From Alistipes sp. (GTDB lineage Bacteria; Bacteroidota; Bacteroidia; Bacteroidales; Rikenellaceae): a stretch of 64,000 nucleotides of DNA. This document shows positions 9,801-63,647 of the stretch, in pieces. Every line of letters starts with the position of its first letter. Position 1 is the stretch's first letter. The notes under the pieces were generated by a model. That model did no database searches. It was not told where the DNA came from and saw only the letters and a list, made by a program, of their open reading frames with translations. The stretch covers positions 1 through 64,000 of the forward strand of contig JAFTOU010000016.1 in assembly GCA_017463615.1 (NCBI GenBank), in the 5' to 3' direction. Position numbers and translations under genes: made by a program.

Positions 9801-12271
9801 AAGCTCTCATCGCCACCCGCCTCCGTAACGCGAGCGATAAGGTTTGCCTGCAACATACCAGGGGCGCGCTCGGTCTTAGGAGGCACATAGTCGCACGAGT
9901 AGCGACCCAGCGAGTCAAGCGTAGCGGTAAACAGCGAATGCTTGGCGTGCGAGAAGGTATACAGAGGGTTGCTGAACTGATAGTTGCAATACTCCTCAAA
10001 TGGACGAGGGTTGCCAAACAGCGACATCTCCATGCTCGCCTTAAGGCCACTTGCCACGGGTCCTGTAAGCCAGTGCGACTCAATGCCAATAGTTGCCTCT
10101 GCATCGCTACAAAGCACCTGCGGGGCAGTAACCTTTATCTTGAGGCGGTTGGGCTTGATGGTCTCAATTCGCACGGTGTGGTGGAGGGTCTGACCGCCCA
10201 CCTTGAACTTAGCACACCAGCGACCAGTAGGCGCATTGTCCGAGGTCTTTGTGCGAAATGAGTAGATGCCGTTTGCATTCTCGGTAAGGGTAATGCTCTC
10301 ATATAGTTGCTCCTCGGGGGTGTAGAGCTCCATTGTCACAGGGTGATTCTTGGGCAGAGCTCGCTGCTTATCCTCAACGATGAGGGTCAAGTAGATATCA
10401 TCGCCAGGACGCCAAACGCCTCGCTCACCATAGATAAAGCCCTTAACGCCCTGAGGTATCTTCTTGCCACCCACATCAAAACGGCTGAGCGAGAGAAGAT
10501 GTGCACCATTGATTTTGAGGTAGGTTGTAGACACTCCATTCGTTGCCGTTACTACAAACGGCTCTCCGTCGGTCTTAAAGTCTGCAAAACCCTGCTCATT
10601 GGTATATGCAGAGCCAATCTCGCGCATCTGGTAGTTATATGCCGTAACACGAATGCCCGCAAGTGGCTTAGTGGTCATAATATCGGTTACGGCGCTCCAT
10701 AGCTGCTCCGTATCGGCACGCTTTACGACAATGCCCAGATTGGATGCCATAAGGTTGTACTCCGGCATACGGTCGGAGACCATATAGTAGCTATCCGCTG
10801 CCGGGTCGTCACTCTTCCTCCAGTTATAGCTCTCCCAATCGTAATCGGGTGCTTGACGGCTAATATAAGCACAATCGCAGTCCCACTTAGCTCTATCCGC
10901 CTTTGTCAAACCCGAGATAGACTCAAAATCTGCCGCTGCAGCGCGGTCGTAGAGCGAATAGGCCTTGCGGAAAGAGAGGCGGATATTGTAAATCGCCCCG
11001 CGCTCCTGCTTAAAGAGGTTCTTCAGGTCTATGGAGAAGTTCTGCCACTGGTGCAGATTGAGCGACTTATCCTGGTCAAGGCGCACAGTCTGCTTGAAGA
11101 TAAGACGCCCCACTCGTCTGAGGCGATACGACTCCTCAACCTCATTCTCCTGCAGGAAGGTCATCACATTGTCGGTATAAATCTTGACAACCTCCACATC
11201 CACAGCAGCAAGATTTACCGCGCGGAAGGGGAACTTGAGATTGCTACCATCAGGCAGAATAGTACCGCTAATAGGCACCTCAATAGCTGGCGCGATAACA
11301 GTCTGTTTGCACTGTACCTCAACCTCGCGAGGCAATCTTCTACCGTCATTTGCACGAATCAAATCTGAGAGGCGCAACAGCATAACTTTCAGTCCATTAT
11401 GGGGATAGAAGACCTTGACATTTGTACCGCTACGCACTATGCGCAAATCAGAGATGTTGTCAATCGTAATAAGGCCATCCAACTCCTGCTCTGTAGAGAG
11501 CGGAGCCGAGAACTCCAAATCGACAAATGGCTCAGAGGCATCATTGCGCTTTGCCGAGAGCAACTTGAACTCCGATAGACCGGGAACTACAACCTCCGCC
11601 TTTGCGACAGAAAACCACTCCTGAGGGTTGTATTTAATATGTAGTTTCCTATCCAACGCTGCCCTTTTTATACCGCTCAGCTTGAATGTGTAGCACATCT
11701 CATCCCCAGTAAATTGCAGGTCAGATATTGCGCCCTTATCATCGCAGGTCAAAAGCGTGCTATCCAAAGCCGCCTCGCTTGGCGGGGAGTTGAAAATAAT
11801 TCTACCCTCAACCACCACCTGCTCAACATTGTCGGGGTCTACAAATAGATTTATATCTGCAAACTTAGCCTCGCGGCGAGATACGGCAAAGCTAAAGGCA
11901 AAATCTCTCAGCGTATCAATACCCGTCAGGCGTGCCATATCTACCCTACACTCGTAGGTTTTGCCCTGCTTGAGCGAGCCAAAGTTAGGGATGTATTCAA
12001 TATACTTACCACCCTCCGCATAACGAGCCTCGCCACTAACAGATGGCCAGAAGCGAAAGACCTTATCAAGAGAGCGCAGCGTATCAATATGCGCACGCAG
12101 AGCCGCTGTCGTCTCTACGCAAATTCTACCTCCCATACCAATTCGTTCAGGGGTGTAAGCGGCAACCCATCGGGTAGCCTCCTGAGGCGTCATAGGCTCC
12201 GACGAGCCACAGGCGACAATACCCATCAGGGTCAGTGCCGCAATCCAAAGTTTGAGCAGATTTGTCTTCAT
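6821..12271 (-). CDS. Bacterial alpha-2-macroglobulin (YfhM-type) lipoprotein
   Basis: An 1816-residue lipoprotein with signal peptide and lipobox ending at C21 (GIVAC). It follows the bacterial alpha-2-macroglobulin plan: MG-type beta domains in the N-terminal 1100 residues, then an alpha-alpha toroid thioester domain and a C-terminal receptor-like domain. The thioester motif is intact as C1381-T-E-Q1384 in HYCTEQLS, so it should form the Cys-Gln thioester that traps proteases covalently. The bait region cannot be fixed by eye. It is co-transcribed with pbpC immediately downstream, the classic pairing for periplasmic protease defence. The product should be anchored to the inner or outer membrane. 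Confidence 0.9.
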   Translation of the reverse strand: MKTNLLKLWIAALTLMGIVACGSSEPMTPQEATRWVAAYTPERIGMGGRICVETTAALRAHIDTLRSLDKVFRFWPSVSGEARYAEGGKYIEYIPNFGSLKQGKTYECRVDMARLTGIDTLRDFAFSFAVSRREAKFADINLFVDPDNVEQVVVEGRIIFNSPPSEAALDSTLLTCDDKGAISDLQFTGDEMCYTFKLSGIKRAALDRKLHIKYNPQEWFSVAKAEVVVPGLSEFKLLSAKRNDASEPFVDLEFSAPLSTEQELDGLITIDNISDLRIVRSGTNVKVFYPHNGLKVMLLRLSDLIRANDGRRLPREVEVQCKQTVIAPAIEVPISGTILPDGSNLKFPFRAVNLAAVDVEVVKIYTDNVMTFLQENEVEESYRLRRVGRLIFKQTVRLDQDKSLNLHQWQNFSIDLKNLFKQERGAIYNIRLSFRKAYSLYDRAAAADFESISGLTKADRAKWDCDCAYISRQAPDYDWESYNWRKSDDPAADSYYMVSDRMPEYNLMASNLGIVVKRADTEQLWSAVTDIMTTKPLAGIRVTAYNYQMREIGSAYTNEQGFADFKTDGEPFVVTATNGVSTTYLKINGAHLLSLSRFDVGGKKIPQGVKGFIYGERGVWRPGDDIYLTLIVEDKQRALPKNHPVTMELYTPEEQLYESITLTENANGIYSFRTKTSDNAPTGRWCAKFKVGGQTLHHTVRIETIKPNRLKIKVTAPQVLCSDAEATIGIESHWLTGPVASGLKASMEMSLFGNPRPFEEYCNYQFSNPLYTFSHAKHSLFTATLDSLGRYSCDYVPPKTERAPGMLQANLIARVTEAGGDESLTSHSVRYSPYESYVGICLGESVYQTDCDIKFPIVTLDADGKRVDRELYYKIYRLDWSWWWEGSAADLSRYVQSTTAEIVKQGSLSTADGKAEVPFRVDYPSWGKYLVYVEDTVSGHATGGVVGVDWPDWRGHSGKSDPTAATMLSFSLDKRSYEVGEYAVVYLPKSAGGRALLSVENGSRVISRRWVETSAVKETAHRILVTRDMAPNFYIYATLLQPHAQTINDLPIRMYGVEAATVIDKQTILHPEIDVPAEIRPQQEFSVKVREQDGKPMSYTLAIVDEGLLDITAFKTPQPWAAMNRREALGVKTWDMYNDVIGAYGGKFTSILSIGGDEALRMAAGKEKRFNPVVKFLGPFTLNGGVKTHKITLPMYVGSVRVMVVAAKDGAYGSADKTVAVRSPLMLLTTLPRKLNCGDRVRMPINLFAMEDGVADVQVSVAADGPLSVVGGNTKRVTFSNPSEKLVDFDLRCDAVQQGRAKVVVTAVGGGQTATETIWIDVANPLPNIVKSESVELTAGEVRTLEWSKFSAGEAALTLATAPAIDFSGAFEFVESYSHYCTEQLSAQAMYMLYARQFLSADEQSRAERALPSLLKMISSRQLTSGGFAYWSGNREAHDWATSMVGEVMTEARRQGFVVSNQCYDRWREYQLSAARKYRHTTVEAADLQQAYRLYTLVLSGEQPTAQMNKLRESKSLSRQALIRLSATYSLMGRVDVAAKLMERVDAATAIDGSYATFWSPLRDEAMELESYVVMGERGKAAKLAHSVAAKFSATRCTTQELAFVSAAISRFASLNSGRANEIIVAEAENGERSIRDLHGVKSIELNTASGAVTVSNKGGESLYISLMTSRRPSADEKVAATSSGVSLAVSYTDMEGKPIAIENLAQGTEFMAVIEVKRGATSSPSMALTFAVPSGWEIWNERLVGGQSNRNATYTDVRDDSISWYFSADKYWLNRFTVRLRAAYVGEYMLPPTICEDMYDTECRAVTTNTKIKVE

Positions 12272-12612
12272 TTTTATACTTGTTTTAAGGTAGGCTCTAT
12301 AAATTAGGGCGAGGCAATTTGGGAGATTTTTTAGGCAGATTTTTCATCTCTTTTAAGGGCGCAATAGCCTATTGTAACCGCAAAAAGATGAAAAATATGG
12401 CAAAATAAGCCCCAAAGTGACCGCAATAGAATCTATCCAATAACGGAAATTACAATTTACTAATTTATAGAACATACCTTATTGTTTGCACAATCGTTCA
12501 AGTACAAATTTCCAAAAAATAAATCGTACAGCCGAGCATTTTTCGCCCGACTGTACGAAATCATTTTTAGGGTGTATGAAATCCTAATCAGTAAAACATT
12601 TCACTCCTCTTC
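12272..12612. other. 341-base intergenic region between the alpha-2-macroglobulin and L,D-transpeptidase genes
   Basis: No open frame here looks like a gene. It is AT-rich, contains a strong hairpin (listed separately) next to the L,D-transpeptidase stop, and must contain the promoter of the large alpha-2-macroglobulin gene. A weak -7-like box (TAATTTAT on the minus strand, just upstream of 12271) is the only candidate I see. Confidence 0.5.
12513..12558 (-). terminator. Rho-independent terminator of the 12613-18044 operon
   Basis: TCGTACAGCCGAGC and GCCCGACTGTACGA form a 13-14 base-pair stem (arms within 12524-12557) with an ATTTTTC loop. On the minus strand it is followed by ATTTATTTTTT, a good U-tract after the last gene of the operon. 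A shorter T-run on the plus strand could make it bidirectional. Confidence 0.7.
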
Positions 12613-13233
12613 TCAATTATACACCCACATTATGACGGGTTTTGTGGGGTTGTCAATAGCCCTGCTGCAAGAGTTGAATTTGCTAAATGGAACGGTGATG
12701 CAGCCCGCGCTGAATGCGGGCAAGAGGCGTTTGCCGCAGATGCTCAGCCCATTTGGAATTGGGAAGGGGAATATAGATACTGGCAGAGGAGTCTGGTGCA
12801 GCAGAATGTAGCGACTTCGCGCATTGCTATTACTGCTATCCAACCCATCCAATTCATAGGCCTTTGCTATGGGCATAATGTACATCTTTCGCTTCAGCCC
12901 AATCTTATAGTGTCCCAGCGAGGTGCATTTTGACTCGGGCACATTGCTAAAACTAGTCCCGCCAAACATCCTTGCCCCGCCATATCCCTGCGCGCAGATA
13001 CTGCTTGTAACCACCCTCTTTGCGCGAAAATCCCACACGAAAAACCGCGCTCTGCCAGAGTACAGACTGTAATCTACCAATATACCAACATCGGTATTAT
13101 AACCATTGCTCCTGCAATATTGCTCCAGCTCCGCCGCCTTCTGCTCAAGATTTCGCGGCGGGATATGACCAATCACATACGCAGTCACAACCACGAATGT
13201 AATAACAACTATAGCTTTTAGAGATATTTTCAT
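12613..13233 (-). CDS. Murein L,D-transpeptidase-like protein (YkuD_2 family)
   Basis: A 206-residue protein with an N-terminal membrane or signal segment (about 5-22, KAIVVITFVVVTAYVIG). The C-terminal half carries the L,D-transpeptidase hallmark: H146 in LLHQTPLP and the nucleophile C178 in SAGCITVP. The region KCTSLGHYKIG fits the strand pair that precedes the active site. Family members link peptidoglycan stems or attach proteins through a cysteine acyl-enzyme. It is the last gene of a minus-strand run and starts 3 bases after the previous stop. Short copies like this in Bacteroidetes are often of unknown substrate. Confidence 0.75.
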   Translation of the reverse strand: MKISLKAIVVITFVVVTAYVIGHIPPRNLEQKAAELEQYCRSNGYNTDVGILVDYSLYSGRARFFVWDFRAKRVVTSSICAQGYGGARMFGGTSFSNVPESKCTSLGHYKIGLKRKMYIMPIAKAYELDGLDSSNSNARSRYILLHQTPLPVSIFPFPIPNGLSICGKRLLPAFSAGCITVPFSKFNSCSRAIDNPTKPVIMWVYN

Positions 13234-26977: not shown

Positions 26978-27139
26978 ATGAAAAAGTATCGTTGTACAGT
27001 ATGCTCCTGGGTCTACGACCCAGAGATTGGTGACCCCGACAGCGGCATCGCCCCCGGCACCCCATTTGAGGACATCCCAGATGACTGGACCTGCCCCCTC
27101 TGCGGCGTCGGCAAAGAGGACTTCGTAGCGGAGGAGTAG
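26978..27139 (+). CDS. Rubredoxin
   Basis: A 53-residue rubredoxin, of the usual length. The four iron ligands sit in two CxxC motifs: C6-x-x-C9 ([11 protein letters not shown]) and C39-x-x-C42 (TCPLCGVG). The family-specific [24 protein letters not shown] and the C-terminal acidic tail are all present. It is the third gene of a redox operon with a NifX-like and a DUF4405 protein. Rubredoxin passes single electrons, typically in oxygen or peroxide detoxification in anaerobes; the partner here is not visible. Confidence 0.95.
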
Positions 27140-27143
27140 CGTT

Positions 27144-27180
27144 GTTGGCTATTGGCTATTGGCTATTGGCTTTTCAGAGG
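27144..27180 (+). repeat. Heptameric GGCTATT tandem array
   Basis: Four consecutive GGCTATT-type units (TTGGCTATTGGCTATTGGC and onward) end in TTTTCAGAGG. The same unit recurs in the gaps at about 41182, 43077, 58085 and 63297. It begins 5 bases after the rubredoxin stop. Confidence 0.8.
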
Positions 27181-27187
27181 AATTTTT

Positions 27188-27295
27188 TATTAAGGGTTAT
27201 TAAAGAGTATTAAGGGCTACTAATGGTCGCGGAACGCGACGCTACGCAGTACAAAAGTTTGCGCTACCCTTAGTAGTCCTTAATAACCCTTAATA
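27188..27295. repeat. Large imperfect inverted repeat
   Basis: The left arm (27188-27222) contains TATTAAGGGTTATTAA and CTACTAA; the right arm (27270-27295) is its complement, ending CTTAATAACCCTTAATA. The left arm has an extra ATTAAGGG copy. The centre holds a small GTCGCG-GAA-CGCGAC hairpin. Together with the neighbouring array and the structured element it fills the 322-base gap after rubredoxin; no gene is present. It may end transcription of the redox operon. Confidence 0.6.
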
Positions 27296-27332
27296 TATCG
27301 CTACGGATAGCACCTCAGACTCTTTCTTGCAC

Positions 27333-27464
27333 AATTTTGGTGTCAAAATGCGGTAGTAGGCGTACATCGTGCAAAAAAGTAGCATCGGATAGTACTAAAA
27401 GCGTACAGCCGATGCTACTTTTTAAGGGATGTGCGGCTAATGCCGTATTTTCACGCCAAAATTA
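27333..27464 (+). ncRNA. Structured repeat element, copy A (probable RNA)
   Basis: A 132-base extended hairpin. The outer helix pairs ATTTTGGTGT with ACGCCAAAAT and AAAATGCGG with CCGTATTTT; an inner helix pairs GTACATC with GATGTGC; the apical helix pairs GTAGCATCGG with CCGATGCTAC around a GTAC...GTAC loop. Copy B at 50088-50217 has the same loops but different helix sequences. The mismatched positions pair as G-U only if the plus strand is the RNA. The last three bases are the reversed stop codon of the minus-strand acyl-CoA synthetase gene, as in copy B. The apical stem with T-runs could also end transcription in both directions. Confidence 0.6.
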
Positions 27465-29102
27465 GTCCTTTTTCTTGCCGCGGCCGTCATATAGGAATCT
27501 GCGAATCTTCTTGGATGGCGTCTTAACAAACTCCTCCTCTTCCTCTACGACTTCGGTGATGCGGGAGTTGCGGTTTACCTTGGAGTTGATCCACTGCTTG
27601 ATATCCTCCATAATCTCGTCGCGAACCTTGGACCACTCCTCCTTCTTCTCCTCAAGGTCATCCATAAGCTCCTCATAGCGAGCCTTGATAGCCTCCATAT
27701 CAAAGTTTACGAGTGCGACAAGGTGACCCTCGTGCTCGGTAACCAGAGACTCGTTGATAAAGACATGCTGGTTGAGCACGCTCTCAATATCCTCTGGGTA
27801 GATATTCTCGCCACTTGGGCCGAGAATCATATTCTTCAGGCGACCCTTGATATAGAGCCAGCCGTCCTTATCAAAGCATGCCAGGTCGCCAGTGCGGAAC
27901 CAACCATCCTCGGTAAATACAGCCGCGGTAGCCTCTGGGTTCTTGTAGTAGCCGACCATCTGGCTTGGGCTCTTGACAACAAGCTCGCCAATGCCCTCCT
28001 CGTTAGGGTTCTCAATACGACCCTCAACGCCCTGAAGCAGTGGACCTGTAGAGCCGAGGCGGAGCATACCATCCACAGCACCCGCAAGCAGCGGAGCAGT
28101 CTCGGTAAGGCCATAGCCGATATCGTAGATGAACTTAGCGTCAAGCAGGAACTGCTCCACAGTAGAGTCCAACTTCGCACCGCCGATACCGAAGAAGCGG
28201 ACACGACCGCCGAAGGTCTTAGTAAGGGTCTTACCAGCCACGCGGTGGAGCATCTTGCGGATAAAGCCTACGCCATAGAGCGTGCGCATAACGGCGTTAG
28301 AGGTGAACTTCTTAAGCACAGCGCCGCGATAGATCTTCTCAATAATAAGCGGCACGGTGAGCATAATTGTCGGGCGAACCTCCTTGAGTGCCGGCAGCAG
28401 CGTAGATACGGTCGGAGCCTTATCCAGATAGACCACATGGCTACCGTGATAGAAGGCAAGAATAAGGCCGATAGTACACTCATAGGTGTGTGCCAGAGGC
28501 AGCACAGAGAGGAAAATATCGGTCTCGTAGACCATAAAGAGCTTGTCAATCATCCAGAGCTGCGAGCAGAGGTTGTAGTGGGTAAGCATCACGCCCTTAG
28601 GCTGCGAAGTTGTACCCGAGGTGTAGATGATAGCAGCCAAATCGTCAGGCTTTGGCAGAGCGGTAGAGCCATTGCCACCCTTGACATTCTGAGAGATAAC
28701 GCCCAGATTCTTCGTACGCACAACAAGGTGCAGCTTATCGGCAGTCTGCTTAGAGAGCTTGGAGAAGAGGCGGTCTGAAACAAAGAGAGCCTTGGTCTCC
28801 GAGTGCTCTACAATACGGTCAATATCCTCCGATGTGAAGTCGGGCATAATTGGCACAACTACATAGCCTGCCGAGGTGATTGCAAAGTATGCCACGCCCC
28901 AGTTTGGCACGCTACTACTCAAAATTGCTACGCGATCGCCTGGGTGAATGTCGGCATCTATAAGCATTGACTGAATCTGCTCAATGCGCTTGCCAACCTC
29001 GCTATAAGTTACCTCGGCGCCACGCCATAATGAAAAGGCAGTACGAGTAGAAAACTTCTTCAAGCTGTTCTGAAGAACCTCGTACAATGTCGTTAAGTTC
29101 AT
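27462..29102 (-). CDS. Long-chain fatty acid-CoA ligase (AMP-binding enzyme)
   Basis: A 546-residue adenylate-forming enzyme. The P-loop-like motif is IIYTSGTTSQPKGVMLTH, the A4/A5 motifs are at FGIGGAKLD and YGLTETAPLL, and the A7-A8 hinge is GWFRTGDLACFDKDGWLYIKGRLKN. The C-terminal catalytic Lys lies in the KTPSKKIRR tail. It activates a fatty acid with ATP and CoA at the cytosolic side of the membrane. A -7-type box (TAAATTTG on the minus strand, 29182-29189) lies about 80 bases upstream. Its stop codon coincides with the edge of the structured element at 27333-27464. Confidence 0.92.
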   Translation of the reverse strand: MNLTTLYEVLQNSLKKFSTRTAFSLWRGAEVTYSEVGKRIEQIQSMLIDADIHPGDRVAILSSSVPNWGVAYFAITSAGYVVVPIMPDFTSEDIDRIVEHSETKALFVSDRLFSKLSKQTADKLHLVVRTKNLGVISQNVKGGNGSTALPKPDDLAAIIYTSGTTSQPKGVMLTHYNLCSQLWMIDKLFMVYETDIFLSVLPLAHTYECTIGLILAFYHGSHVVYLDKAPTVSTLLPALKEVRPTIMLTVPLIIEKIYRGAVLKKFTSNAVMRTLYGVGFIRKMLHRVAGKTLTKTFGGRVRFFGIGGAKLDSTVEQFLLDAKFIYDIGYGLTETAPLLAGAVDGMLRLGSTGPLLQGVEGRIENPNEEGIGELVVKSPSQMVGYYKNPEATAAVFTEDGWFRTGDLACFDKDGWLYIKGRLKNMILGPSGENIYPEDIESVLNQHVFINESLVTEHEGHLVALVNFDMEAIKARYEELMDDLEEKKEEWSKVRDEIMEDIKQWINSKVNRNSRITEVVEEEEEFVKTPSKKIRRFLYDGRGKKKD

Positions 29103-49974: not shown

Positions 49975-49986
49975 AATATAACAAGC

Positions 49987-50020
49987 AAAGACCTCCCAAA
50001 AGGAGGTCTTTGTTGTTTTG
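49987..50020 (+). terminator. Terminator after the lipoprotein gene
   Basis: The hairpin AAAGACCTCC-CAAAA-GGAGGTCTTT is identical to that at 49195, followed by GTTGTTTTG. It ends 68 bases before the structured element copy B. Confidence 0.85.
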
Positions 50021-50087: not shown

Positions 50088-50217
50088 TATTTTGTTGTCA
50101 GAACGCGGTAGTAGGTGTGCATCGCGAAAATAGCCCGGATGGGTTGTACTTGAGCGTACTACCCATTCGGGCTATTAAGGGATGTGCAGCTAATGCCGCG
50201 TTATCACAACAAAATTA
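50088..50217 (+). ncRNA. Structured repeat element, copy B (probable RNA)
   Basis: A 130-base extended hairpin homologous to 27333-27464. Outer helix ATTTTGTTGT with ACAACAAAAT, then ACGCGG with CCGCGT; inner helix GTGCATC with GATGTGC; apical helix TAGCCCGGATGGGT with ACCCATTCGGGCTA around a GTAC...GTAC loop. The strings GCGGTAGTAGG and TTAAGGGATGTGC are shared unchanged with copy A, while several helix pairs changed on both sides. Its last bases are the complement of the stop codon of the PpiD-like gene. Unlike copy A it lacks strong T-runs at the apical stem, so termination alone does not explain conservation. Confidence 0.6.
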
Positions 50218-52236
50218 GAAGTAGCCGACGGTGTTATCCTCAATGTTAGCCAACTCCTGCACTGCGTAGAATGCGCGGGTTGCGCTCTGCTCGGCAGCTG
50301 CCTGCTGCTTAACCTTCTCAGCCTCGGCGGTCTGAGCCTCAGCGGCAGGGGTTACGGTATCAGTAACGAGGACATAAACGCCGCTTGCGCCCTTGATAGG
50401 AGCTGAGAGCTGACCCTGTGGCAGAGAGGTGATTGCGCCAAGTACGCGAGGCTCTACGCCCACGCCTGGAACATAGTATGCGTCATACTTCACATTCTCA
50501 AAGGTCTTAACCTCGCCCTGAGTAGCTGCAGCTACCTCCTCAATAGTTGCGCCAGTCATAGAGGCTGCAATCTGCTCAAACTTCTTATCGCGCAGAAGGG
50601 TGCTCTTAATCTGAGGAGCTACCTCCTTAACGGTGCGGTACTCGTTGTCGTTGATACCTGTGAGGGTTGCGATTACATAGTGGTTGTTATCCAGCTTGAT
50701 AAGCTCTGAGATATCGCCCACCTTAGCCTTATTTACCCAGTAAACCAACTCCAGAGAGTTAGACTCAATACCGCGTACGGCGCGAGCTGCGTGCTCAACA
50801 GTAGCGGTGCGAGAAGCCTGTGCCTGAGCGGTTACGGTAGCATCAAAGCCATCGTTCTGAGCGTTTACAGCGAAGAGGCTTGCAGCGTTGTGAACATCGC
50901 GCTGAGTCTGAGCTGAAGCAACGAGTGGATAGCTCAGTGTAGCGAGCTTATAGTGCTTCTGGATAGCGTTTACACCCTCAACCTTGAGAATCTGGATAAC
51001 ATTACCCATAACCAGCTTAACGATGTCGCCCTTCTTCTTACCTACCAGTGCATCTGCGAACTCTGGAGCAAGTGAAGCGTAGGTAACCTCGCCAATCTTA
51101 CCACCATCAGCAGCGGTCTGAGCCAGAGAGTGAGCAGCAGCCAAAGCAGCGAAGTCGCCACCCTTAGCAACATTTACGAGGCTATCAGCCAGCTCGGTAT
51201 CGGTATAGTTGAGAACGATGTGGCTCAGGGTATACTTCTCAGGTACATTGCGCACCTCTGCTACGCGAGCAGCACGCCACTCGTCAGCAACGAGAGTAGG
51301 GCCATACATCTTACCCTTAGTCAGAGCCTCGCTCTCCTCTGCAGTCATCTGAGCTGCAGTGATATAGGTCTGAGCGATAGCAGCGTGGCGGTTCTCACGA
51401 GCGTAAGACTTGAGGTCATCAACAGTAGCAAACTGCTCTGCAGCAGCCTTAGCCTCAGCCTCAACAGCAGCCTTATCTGCATCGGTTGCAACAACCTCAT
51501 ACTCAACGAAAGAGATTGTGCGGTATGGAGTCTGCTTGTACTGGCTCTTGTGAGCGTTGTAGTAAGCCTTAATCTCGCTATCAGAAACGGTTACCAGAGA
51601 GTCTGCAACAGTGTTGTAGCGGCTAACAACATAGCGACCACCGAAGCTGTTGTTTGCAGCATTTACGCCACGCTCAACCTCCAGAGCAGTTGCATAAGCG
51701 CCCTTCTTTACAAGCTCCTGATACTTCATCATCGCGCGGTCGATATCAGCCTGCTTGCTCAGGAAAGACCACATCTGCTGAGCCTGTGGGTTGCCCTCTA
51801 CCTGAGAGAGGAAAGCGGTTACAGCCTCAAGGCTATACTCGCCAGTCTGAGGGTTGCCAAATACGCTACCGAAGACATTGCTTGCACGCTCGCCACGAAC
51901 CATAGCCTTGTGCTCTGCCTCGCCTACTGCAAGACCAAGCTCCTCAAAGCCAGGGGTGAATACATGGTCTGAGAGCAGAATCTGCCAAGTGCTTGCCAGT
52001 GCCTGCTGAGCAGCCTGATCGGTATTAAGCTCGCCCATCTGTGCCTTTACATCGTCATAAGCAGCAAGGAACTCTGAGTAGTGAATCTCCTCGCCGTCAA
52101 TTGAACCTACCTCTGGATCGTTGCCAGAGAATCCCATCTCTGTCTTCAGAGAGAGGATGAACGCCAAAAGTGCGCCTGCGATAATCACTGAGAGCAGTAC
52201 GCCAAATTTGGTTCTTAAAGTATTCAAAGTTACCAT
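50215..52236 (-). CDS. PpiD/SurA-like periplasmic peptidyl-prolyl isomerase
   Basis: A 673-residue foldase. One N-terminal membrane anchor (about 13-31, GVLLSVIIAGALLAFILSL), a SurA_N-like helical region (about 35-290) and a parvulin domain at about 330-440 (TLSHIVLNYTDTELADSLVNV, then FAALAAAHSLAQTAADGGKIGEV). A long helical C-terminal part follows. It helps outer membrane proteins fold in the periplasm. It ends the coaX-to-ppiD gene run on the minus strand, 122 bases after the CNNM gene, and its stop codon touches copy B of the structured element. Confidence 0.9.
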   Translation of the reverse strand: MVTLNTLRTKFGVLLSVIIAGALLAFILSLKTEMGFSGNDPEVGSIDGEEIHYSEFLAAYDDVKAQMGELNTDQAAQQALASTWQILLSDHVFTPGFEELGLAVGEAEHKAMVRGERASNVFGSVFGNPQTGEYSLEAVTAFLSQVEGNPQAQQMWSFLSKQADIDRAMMKYQELVKKGAYATALEVERGVNAANNSFGGRYVVSRYNTVADSLVTVSDSEIKAYYNAHKSQYKQTPYRTISFVEYEVVATDADKAAVEAEAKAAAEQFATVDDLKSYARENRHAAIAQTYITAAQMTAEESEALTKGKMYGPTLVADEWRAARVAEVRNVPEKYTLSHIVLNYTDTELADSLVNVAKGGDFAALAAAHSLAQTAADGGKIGEVTYASLAPEFADALVGKKKGDIVKLVMGNVIQILKVEGVNAIQKHYKLATLSYPLVASAQTQRDVHNAASLFAVNAQNDGFDATVTAQAQASRTATVEHAARAVRGIESNSLELVYWVNKAKVGDISELIKLDNNHYVIATLTGINDNEYRTVKEVAPQIKSTLLRDKKFEQIAASMTGATIEEVAAATQGEVKTFENVKYDAYYVPGVGVEPRVLGAITSLPQGQLSAPIKGASGVYVLVTDTVTPAAEAQTAEAEKVKQQAAAEQSATRAFYAVQELANIEDNTVGYF

Positions 52237-57945: not shown

Positions 57946-58084
57946 AGTCTCTCGCTCTCTATGCGGCACATATTGCCGTTAAATTGTATATTGACATTCC
58001 CTCCAAACCTCCCTTTGCAAAAGGGAGGCTTAGTCGCTACGCTCCGAAATTGTGGAATGTATTGCCCGTATCAATAATTAAATT
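57899..58084. repeat. 35-base direct repeat of the coaX 5-prime coding region
   Basis: 57899-57933 (inside coaX, codons for DTGNT) and 58050-58084 (non-coding) are identical over 35 bases and 151 bases apart. The copy carries no extended coding frame and lies next to a hairpin (CCTCCCTTTGCAAAAGGGAGG). It marks a local duplication or a rearranged insertion. Confidence 0.85.
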
Positions 58085-58256
58085 CACCATTGGCTGTTGG
58101 CTATTAGCTATTGGCTATATAGCGGAATTATGTTATTATTGTTATTTTTTCTATACTAAGTCCTTAACTATCTGCAAGTTATTAAACACACATCCGCAGA
58201 GCGGATACCTCTAAAAAGCCAATAGCCAATGGCTAACGGCTAATGGCTAATCTAAC
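58085..58256. repeat. GGCTATT-type repeat element between coaX and mfd
   Basis: A plus-oriented array (ATTGGCTGTTGGCTATTAGC, 58087-58118) and a mirror array (AGCCAATAGCCAATGGCTAA, about 58218-58252) flank a core with CCGCAGAGCGG and CCTCTAAAAA. The arrangement, arrays in opposite orientation around a core, resembles the elements near 43077 and 63300. No gene is present in this 301-base gap (57946-58246). Confidence 0.65.
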
Positions 58257-63296: not shown

Positions 63297-63605
63297 GACT
63301 ATTGACTATTAGCTATTGGCTGTTGGCTGTTGGCTATTGGCTTTTCAGAGGTATCCGCTGTGCGGATTTGTGTTAATTGGTTTATTATAGAATTGAGCAG
63401 AATTTCTGTCGCTTCCATAACTTTGTCGCCTTAGCGACACCTCTAAAAGGCTGTTGGCTATTGGCTTTTCAGAGGTATCCGCTGTGCAGATTTGTGTTAA
63501 TTGGTTTATTATAGAATTGGGCAGAATTTCTGTCGCTTCTATAACTTTGTCGCTTTAGCGACACCTCTAAAAGGCTGTCGGCTATTGGCTAACAGCTAAT
63601 GGTGT
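63297..63605 (+). repeat. Repeat cluster with GGCTATT arrays and a 124-base tandem duplication
   Basis: A first array (GGCTGTTGGCTGTTGGC, about 63318-63340) is followed by two copies of a 124-base unit: 63334-63457 and 63458-63581, with about five differences. The unit holds CCGCTGTGCGG and TCGCTTTAGCGA hairpins, CAGAGG near its left and CCTCTAAAA near its right end. A partial third repeat starts at 63582. It fills most of the 406-base gap between rng and the small basic protein gene. Confidence 0.85.
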
Positions 63606-63615
63606 CTTTAATAGG

Positions 63616-63647
63616 TAACGCTAAAGGGATAAGCCCCTTTAGCGTTA
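63616..63647. terminator. Strong hairpin downstream of the small basic protein gene
   Basis: TAACGCTAAAGGG and CCCTTTAGCGTTA form a 13 base-pair stem with a six-base loop. A shorter ATGCCCTCGGGCAT hairpin lies at about 63666-63679. Neither has a convincing U-tract on the minus strand, so an RNA-stabilising role is as likely as termination. Confidence 0.45.

Follow-up and report, generated by a model that had tools for sequence, protein, structure and literature searches.

Elements A and B of the window, by which we mean the whole 64,000-nucleotide stretch of DNA analysed here, are members of a large family of imperfect hairpins of about 130 nt, which we have named S. Copies lie mostly at the stop codons of antisense genes, keep almost without exception to one strand of each contig, and vary in their stems by compensatory change. 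We favour, at roughly even chances of being right, a reading in which S is a non-autonomous family of small mobile hairpins of the Alistipes-like genus, entering as a folded single strand by stop codons. With more than 100 copies per genome and many sequenced genomes of the genus, the spread of hairpin repeats becomes a question that can be addressed from sequence. S also allows us to ask what ties a hairpin to one strand of the replicating chromosome, and whether such elements are taken into use by bacteria as the ends of transcripts.

Elements A and B and the S family

The earlier note on this DNA had described two elements with common motifs and a GTAC loop, and both were confirmed at the positions listed in Table 1. 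The motifs GCGGTAGTAGG and TTAAGGGATGTGC are common to A and B and occur free of mismatches nowhere else in the window, where looser matches are found at chance frequency; in both elements GTAC..GTAC lies close to the apex. Folded as RNA, the + strand reaches -71.5 kcal/mol in A and -77.2 kcal/mol in B, and the - strand -53.2 kcal/mol (z -9.2) and -60.8 kcal/mol (z -10.5). Both elements are far more stable than shuffled sequence, and in both the + fold is the stronger. A is antisense to the AMP-binding gene, whose stop codon (TTA on the + strand, 27462-27464) adjoins its right foot and overlaps its last 2 nt, and the right foot of B adjoins the stop codon of the SurA/PPIase-like gene (50215-50217). 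The inner part of A is terminator-like in both directions. No Rfam family matched the window at the gathering score and a search at a lax E-value returned five sub-threshold matches, the best at E 0.32 and none usable, which bears out the earlier remark that no known RNA family is obvious here.

Table 1 Features discussed in the text; positions refer to the window unless a contig (C) is named
Feature	Position	Strand	Basis
Element A, class I hairpin	27333..27463	+	Covariance model match 141.2 bits, E 7.9e-32 (A part of model); fold z -13.2
Element B, class I hairpin of different subtype	50088..50216	+	Covariance model match 138.8 bits, E 2.9e-31 (B part of model); fold z -11.7
AMP-binding enzyme gene	27462..29102	-	ORF; PF00501 E 3.1e-72; 3' ends of orthologues compared
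SurA-like / PPIC-type peptidyl-prolyl isomerase gene	50215..52236	-	ORF; PF13623, PF13145 and others
Rubredoxin gene, convergent partner left of element A	26978..27139	+	PF00301 E 2.1e-25
Classical intrinsic-terminator-like hairpin ahead of element B	49984..50014	+	Terminator scan
Inner part of element A: A-tract, variable GC stem, GTAC/GTAC sub-apical helix, T-tract	27373..27423	+	Sequence, fold; tract counts over copies
Stacked pairs in the window's own genome (G000)	C40:64527/64656, C40:318579/318706, C15:80043/80173, C7:94604/94731, C7:123301/123431		Head to tail

A first nucleotide search of 41 genomes gave 24 matches in the window's own genome (G000), of which two were antisense re-matches; three other genomes together contributed 10. 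A covariance model was then built from 31 copies. It gave 142 matches in G000, from which six antisense re-matches and one partial match were removed to leave at least 135 distinct copies, a minimum, as scoring covered 150 of the 967 candidates; at least two further copies lie in the extracted loci L318 and L278. The pair of elements noticed at the outset is real, but represents two of these copies and is not unique. Run over Bacteroidales genomes, a check that the earlier note had suggested, the covariance model found at least one S match in 84 of 151 genomes of the Alistipes-like genus (own genome counted) and none in the other 67 at the depth used. It found none in 294 other genomes of the order, a shallow search with 11 candidates scored per genome and none of the listed genomes from the genus. 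The distribution is that of one genus only, and patchy within it. By a motif rule, 73 of the 135 copies fall in class I and 50 in class II, which carries the motifs ACGCTCGGCAAAAA .. TTTTTGTTAGCGG and has a separate consensus; 12 are unclassed. We found no description of this family in listings of open PMC papers. Below, G043, G044, G052 and G055 denote relatives of G000, C numbers denote contigs and L numbers extracted loci.

Structure, covariation and strand

The 31 aligned class I copies are folded by RNAalifold into one long hairpin of 48 pairs, 25 of which show two-sided change, and 98.3% of 1486 cells are paired. Cells with two-sided change number 216, compared with 65.1 ± 5.7 after shuffling that leaves relatedness in, and none of 500 shuffles was as high. 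When partners were slid by 1-3 columns, a control that keeps relatedness though the structure derives from the same sequences, 33-49% of cells were paired. In class II (50 copies) two-sided change is seen in 28 of 49 pairs, and paired cells make up 97.8%. The stems that had been quoted as differing in both strands in a compensating manner are real, and the covariation holds over the 31 copies.

Stems vary by compensation from copy to copy, and the internal mismatches, wobbles and GTAC-type sub-apical helix are largely kept. Class I retains wobbles at columns 26/117 and 42/101 (each in 27 of 31 copies) and 36/107 (25 of 31), and class II retains that at columns 41/106 in 49 of 50. The outermost pair, formed by the nucleotide preceding the TTTT foot and the one following AAAA, also covaries: it is complementary in 79 of the 86 copies scored (of 135), as A-T in 65, G-C in 10 and C-G in 4. 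Where a copy directly adjoins a stop codon, the base after AAAA is the last base of the stop.

The + strand of a copy, as set by the covariance model, folds better than the - strand in 134 of 135 copies with RNA parameters and in all 135 with DNA parameters; the mean energies with RNA parameters are -70.2 and -58.5 kcal/mol, respectively. It has 4.66 G.U pairs per copy, the - strand 0.82. At the consensus pairs there are 169 G.U cells against 4 A.C cells in class I and 205 against 12 in class II, in agreement with the earlier preference for the + strand on this ground. One strand, the + strand, is kept pairable, by G.U and not by A.C. The element is G-rich on this strand (skew 0.125) and its left flank is C-rich (-0.081), so its G/C bias is not that of the neighbourhood. 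The strand bias fits RNA and single-stranded DNA alike, and the two are not separable by evidence from folding. Of the earlier claim of a selected RNA structure, the structural covariation stands; RNA action does not follow, and a folded single DNA strand explains the covariation and the G.T bias equally.

Gene ends, orientation and turnover of copies

Neighbouring genes were called with a simple codon-usage gene caller. An antisense gene lies on the right of 122 of the 135 copies (13 are without one), and in 110 its stop codon falls within -27 to +22 nt of the hairpin end: at -3 to 0 in 72, deeper inside the element in 24 and 1-22 nt past its end in 14. In the remaining 12 of the 122 the stop is further away. 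On the left of the 122, the neighbour is a sense gene (convergent arrangement) in 64, an antisense gene (tandem) in 55 and unseen in three. The copy lies closer to the antisense stop in 63 of the 64 convergent cases. GAPDH-like and ribosomal-protein-like genes, named by eye, are among those abutted. A shared promoter was sought in the left flanks, which have a weak likeness beyond CCAT at the foot, with GCAC within 16 nt in 60 of 125.

The tracts of the inner hairpin suggest that resident copies may act as terminators or transcript ends. Read in the direction of the gene, 52 of 73 class I copies and 49 of 50 class II copies have a longest T run of 4 or more, the other 12 of the 135 being unclassed; read in the + direction, the longest run does not exceed 3 in 45 of 73 class I copies.

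Orientation along the chromosome is nearly uniform. In G000 130 of 135 copies are on the majority strand of their contig, including all 31 on C40 and all 23 on C64, and on contigs with at least two copies the count is 125 of 130 (96%); in 2000 strand shuffles of the 135 the majority strand held 100.0 copies on average and 109 at most. Four minority copies lie on G000 contigs with a clear majority, and two of these also abut an antisense stop codon. In G055 90 of 97 copies are on the majority strand (89 of 96 on contigs with at least two). As 13 of 16 GC-skew bins in the window are negative and 37 of its 49 called genes are on the - strand, we infer that the abutted genes are leading-strand genes and that the better-folding strand lies on the leading-strand template, though coding bias may itself cause the skews used. 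Among the fetched loci of G000, nine contigs have at least five copies, and the sign of the GC skew is as expected in six, failing in C65, C7 and C57 (copies on the - strand). In ten stretches of G055 T/A skew agrees in all ten and GC skew in seven.

Sites are also common to different species. Nine other genomes supplied 46 high-scoring copies. Taking as orthologous those sites whose right-flank alignments start within about 12 nt of each other, we find 23 of the 46 at a site orthologous to a G000 copy and in the same orientation (a raw count). Of the others, two match with a shifted alignment and 21 have no match among the G000 flanks compared. The 23 shared-site copies have an element identity of 0.60-0.85 and a flank identity of 78-92%; one shared site, C40:242465, is not a gene end according to the gene caller. 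After the same stop of the AMP-binding gene there is a class I hairpin in G000, G052 and G044 and a class II-like one in G043, while at this 3' end in several other species classical terminator-like hairpins and no S-like hairpin were seen by eye. The G043 copies are alike among themselves. The copy at C15:81796 is 97% identical to its orthologous copies in L038/L202, with gene flanks at 88-91%, which indicates that some copies were inherited.

Copies may be stacked. G000 has five head-to-tail junctions among its 135 copies (Table 1), with neighbours 63-74% identical. G055 has 22 junctions that involve 43 of 97 copies, all 22 with both partners on the same strand, and in the stacks that we read immediate neighbours are unlike. 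In L374 of G055, a stack of three, the first copy is almost the same as the third, as if a two-copy unit had been duplicated, and in L376 two neighbours have most of one arm in common, as from duplication or recombination. Feet of the 5' end in the same orientation as the copy occur in 19 of 131 left flanks as against 4 of 134 right flanks, some belonging to full tandem copies; in the opposite orientation there is one in a left and one in a right flank. Remnants that keep one end only also occur. The left flank of C40:315436 contains a miniature S copy (G000:C40:315392-315435) that has the lower stem only, the apical part being absent. In a G043 copy (L365, G043:C6:47488-47617) the inner hairpin is inverted in place between normal outer stems, and two copies in G000 are chimeric (C57:111089 and C37:36408, the latter being L051). 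As read from these chimeras and L365, gene conversion between copies is visible.

A clean empty site or a target duplication was not recovered at the orthologous sites compared, which mostly had another copy or no alignable intergenic sequence. L160 has no copy opposite C3:36388 and the junction is not clean, and the flanks read have no common target duplication. For a MITE of a DDE transposon one would expect target-site duplication together with terminal repeats that match an IS; the observations on this point are the flanks just mentioned and the outermost pair, complementary in 79 of the 86 scored copies. The 135 copies, the tandem stacks of unlike copies, the remnants and the different copies at orthologous sites lead us to regard S as a mobile or self-renewing intergenic repeat.

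Explanations, known systems and neighbouring repeats

In the reading that we favour, the better-folding strand, as single-stranded DNA or RNA, would be recognised by a recombinase or transposase. A new copy would insert between the stop codon and the foot of the hairpin already in place, and older copies would be pushed away from the gene and then lost by deletion. Entry at the hairpin foot would leave unlike copies stacked and their remains on the side away from the gene, and would let copies be replaced while the address stays fixed. The orientation lock would come from coupling to replication, or from the loss of copies whose better-folding strand is on the lagging-strand template, and the inner A-tract, GC stem and T-tract probably let resident copies act as terminators, making gene ends tolerant landing sites. 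A more pointed form of the proposal, which we advance tentatively and think rather improbable, is a cargo-free, self-stacking hairpin: a recombination hairpin alone, put by an enzyme at its predecessor's base beside the stop codon and oriented by the fork with the folded strand on the leading-strand template. If true, S would represent single-strand recombination of the attC kind that does without an integron integrase, a cassette or an array.

The mobilising enzyme was sought in 22 genomes of the genus, 13 copy-rich and nine copy-free. The Y1 (HUH) transposase profile PF01797 found nothing in the 22, and was positive in 5 of 14 known control genomes; this transposase does not fit as the mobiliser. 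Six of the 13 copy-rich genomes and four of the nine copy-free ones have a reverse transcriptase (RVT_1), so that its presence is not consistent with that of copies, and it too does not fit. Integron integrase (TIGR02249) was found above cut-off in none of the 22 genomes and also in none of the 14 controls, so the sensitivity of this profile is not demonstrated; with none above cut-off we likewise do not consider it a fit. Weaker matches to tyrosine recombinases occur in all 22 genomes and all 14 controls.

Gene conversion is the main rival to re-insertion, and could mimic it. It is also part of an explanation in which S serves the host at 3' ends, as terminator, 3'-UTR stabiliser or insulator of mainly leading-strand genes, selected at each gene end and homogenised by conversion. 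Copies located at the stop codon, a site and orientation common to different species, the inner A-tract, GC stem and T-tract, and the terminator-like hairpins at the AMP-binding gene in several species where no S-like hairpin was seen (by eye) all speak for such a role. So do the chimeras and the in-place inversion, and the orthologous copy that is 97% identical between flanks at 88-91% would fit a resident function. However, a terminator has no need of the conserved mismatches and motifs of the lower stem, the + direction has a T run of at most 3 in 45 of 73 class I copies, and the best-folding strand is antisense to the gene and is not its mRNA. The exact stacks of unlike copies and the 67 of 151 genus genomes without a match at the depth searched also tell against it, and we judge host service possible but on the unlikely side. 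Covariation and the G.U pairs of the + strand would suit a small or antisense RNA made from each copy and acting in trans. This is very improbable given 135 copies, left flanks that are weakly alike with no obvious shared promoter, and neighbours that are both antisense in 55 of 135, so that no sense transcript enters from the left.

Two further explanations bear on how the arms came to match and how copies are made. Palindrome-correcting template switching in replication, which would equalise the arms with no selection on the folded strand, would yield compensatory change, and the in-place inversion in L365 of G043 is a signature of template switching. Such a process gives Watson-Crick pairs, whereas the copies retain G.U wobbles at fixed columns and seldom have A.C; moreover, the skew of the element is opposite to that of its left flank, and the chance that we allow this explanation is slim. 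An RNA-mediated, SINE-like retroelement copied by reverse transcriptase would account for a structured + strand and for remnants with one end only, but RVT_1 was not found in 7 of the 13 copy-rich genomes, which are 87-99% complete, and we hold it to be the faintest prospect of all.

Returning to the mobile hairpin that we favour, the comparison with known systems leads us to view S as a small intergenic palindromic repeat, probably mobile and a member of none of the families tested. Integron attC sites are long imperfect hairpins by a gene's stop codon with variable stems, of which the antisense strand is folded, and their core boxes R''/R' are RYYYAAC / GTTRRRY. S resembles them in that its folded strand is antisense to the gene, its hairpin stands beside the stop (110 of 135) and its placement is, by inference, on the leading-strand template. 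It differs in that no integrase lies above cut-off in the 22 genomes and the abutted genes are not cassettes; by reading, the conserved aligned feet of S have no GTTRRRY/RYYYAAC boxes. The available part of one study places the folded bottom strand of sedentary chromosomal integrons on the leading-strand template in 25 of 30 arrays, an orientation tied by its authors' tests to less cassette excision (PMC5371416). Elements of the IS200/IS605 group have hairpins that are recognised on single strands and a preference for a replication strand, in the portion of the source available (PMC6006769). Both features resemble those proposed for S; these elements, however, act on the lagging-strand template, the better-folding strand of S appears to lie on the leading-strand template, and no Y1 transposase was found in the 22 genomes.

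The REP/BIME/REPIN repeats with TnpA-REP (RAYT) are, like S, multi-copy, intergenic, at gene 3' ends and with G.T pairing in their stems. As given in the accessible text of PMC3733652, REPs are repeats of 20-40 bp in many copies, intergenic and downstream of coding regions, with termini that may supply the stop codon and GT pairing in their stems, and a super-family of REPs tagged by CGTC extends to the Bacteroidetes. A GTAG or CGTC tag at one end is a mark of REPs. In S, CGTC occurs within the first 16 nt (the foot) in 94 of 135 copies and GTC in 128, inside the lower stem and not fixed. A Bacteroidetes class of TnpA-REP is flanked by atypical secondary structures, according to the part of PMC6006769 available. 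S differs from REPs in its length of about 130 nt, its family-wide stem covariation, its orientation lock and the lack of Y1 transposase in 22 genomes.

In size and in their palindromic hairpin, ERIC/IRU, RU-1 (which we take to be ERIC), Neisseria NEMIS and the hairpin repeats of Yersinia and Enterococcus are like S. They come from other organisms, and no such orientation lock or covariation is described in the sections of the sources at hand; S is set apart from them by description, not by sequence. For hairpin repeats of the ERIC/IRU type, extracts give 127 bp for RU-1 and report cotranscription with flanking genes (PMC1590033, PMC2759123). Pneumococcal BOX, RUP and SPRITE are, in the text available, small structured repeats enriched between convergent genes, a preference found in S as well; SPRITE is terminator-like and near 3' ends (PMC3049150). 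S differs in adjoining stop codons and in being 96% on one strand per contig. From the same partial source, 60.8-63.3% of the pneumococcal repeats are on the leading strand, mirroring genes, and against this bias of 61-63%, the sole comparison, the lock of S is near-total (PMC3049150).

Other repeats were also seen, some of them beside S copies. A second structured repeat is cloverleaf-like, with an outer stem CGGAAATAGTC/GACTATTTCCG, two small hairpins and a central terminator-like stem, and has compensatory variants. Nine copies were found by eye, all left of S and in the same orientation; in G000 they lie in the left flanks L034, L048, L051 and L052, near C15:32416, C40:397115, C37:36408 and C7:123301, and by five more S copies. 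A repeat GGCTCGTCTACGACGACCCTTCCTCCTCGCGGCTCGGCATAGCAAACAAGTTTGCTC.. stands in left flanks of G000 (C51:204605, C64:103125 and others), mostly in one orientation relative to S and once inverted. In the window a long inverted repeat, TATTAAGGGTTATTAAAGAG..CCCTTAATATATCGC, lies directly left of element A at 27187-27300 and recurs beside many S copies. Tandem units of the GCYATTRGC type followed by TTTTCAGAGG or short palindromes form a repeated intergenic module at 27144-27180, 58078-58255 and 63547-63632. Finally, one gap in the window, bounded by a gene that ends at 12613 and another that starts at 12271, contains an inverted repeat of about 196 nt with nested stems (12286-12481) as well as a strong hairpin of terminator type that has GTAC close to its ends (12524-12558).
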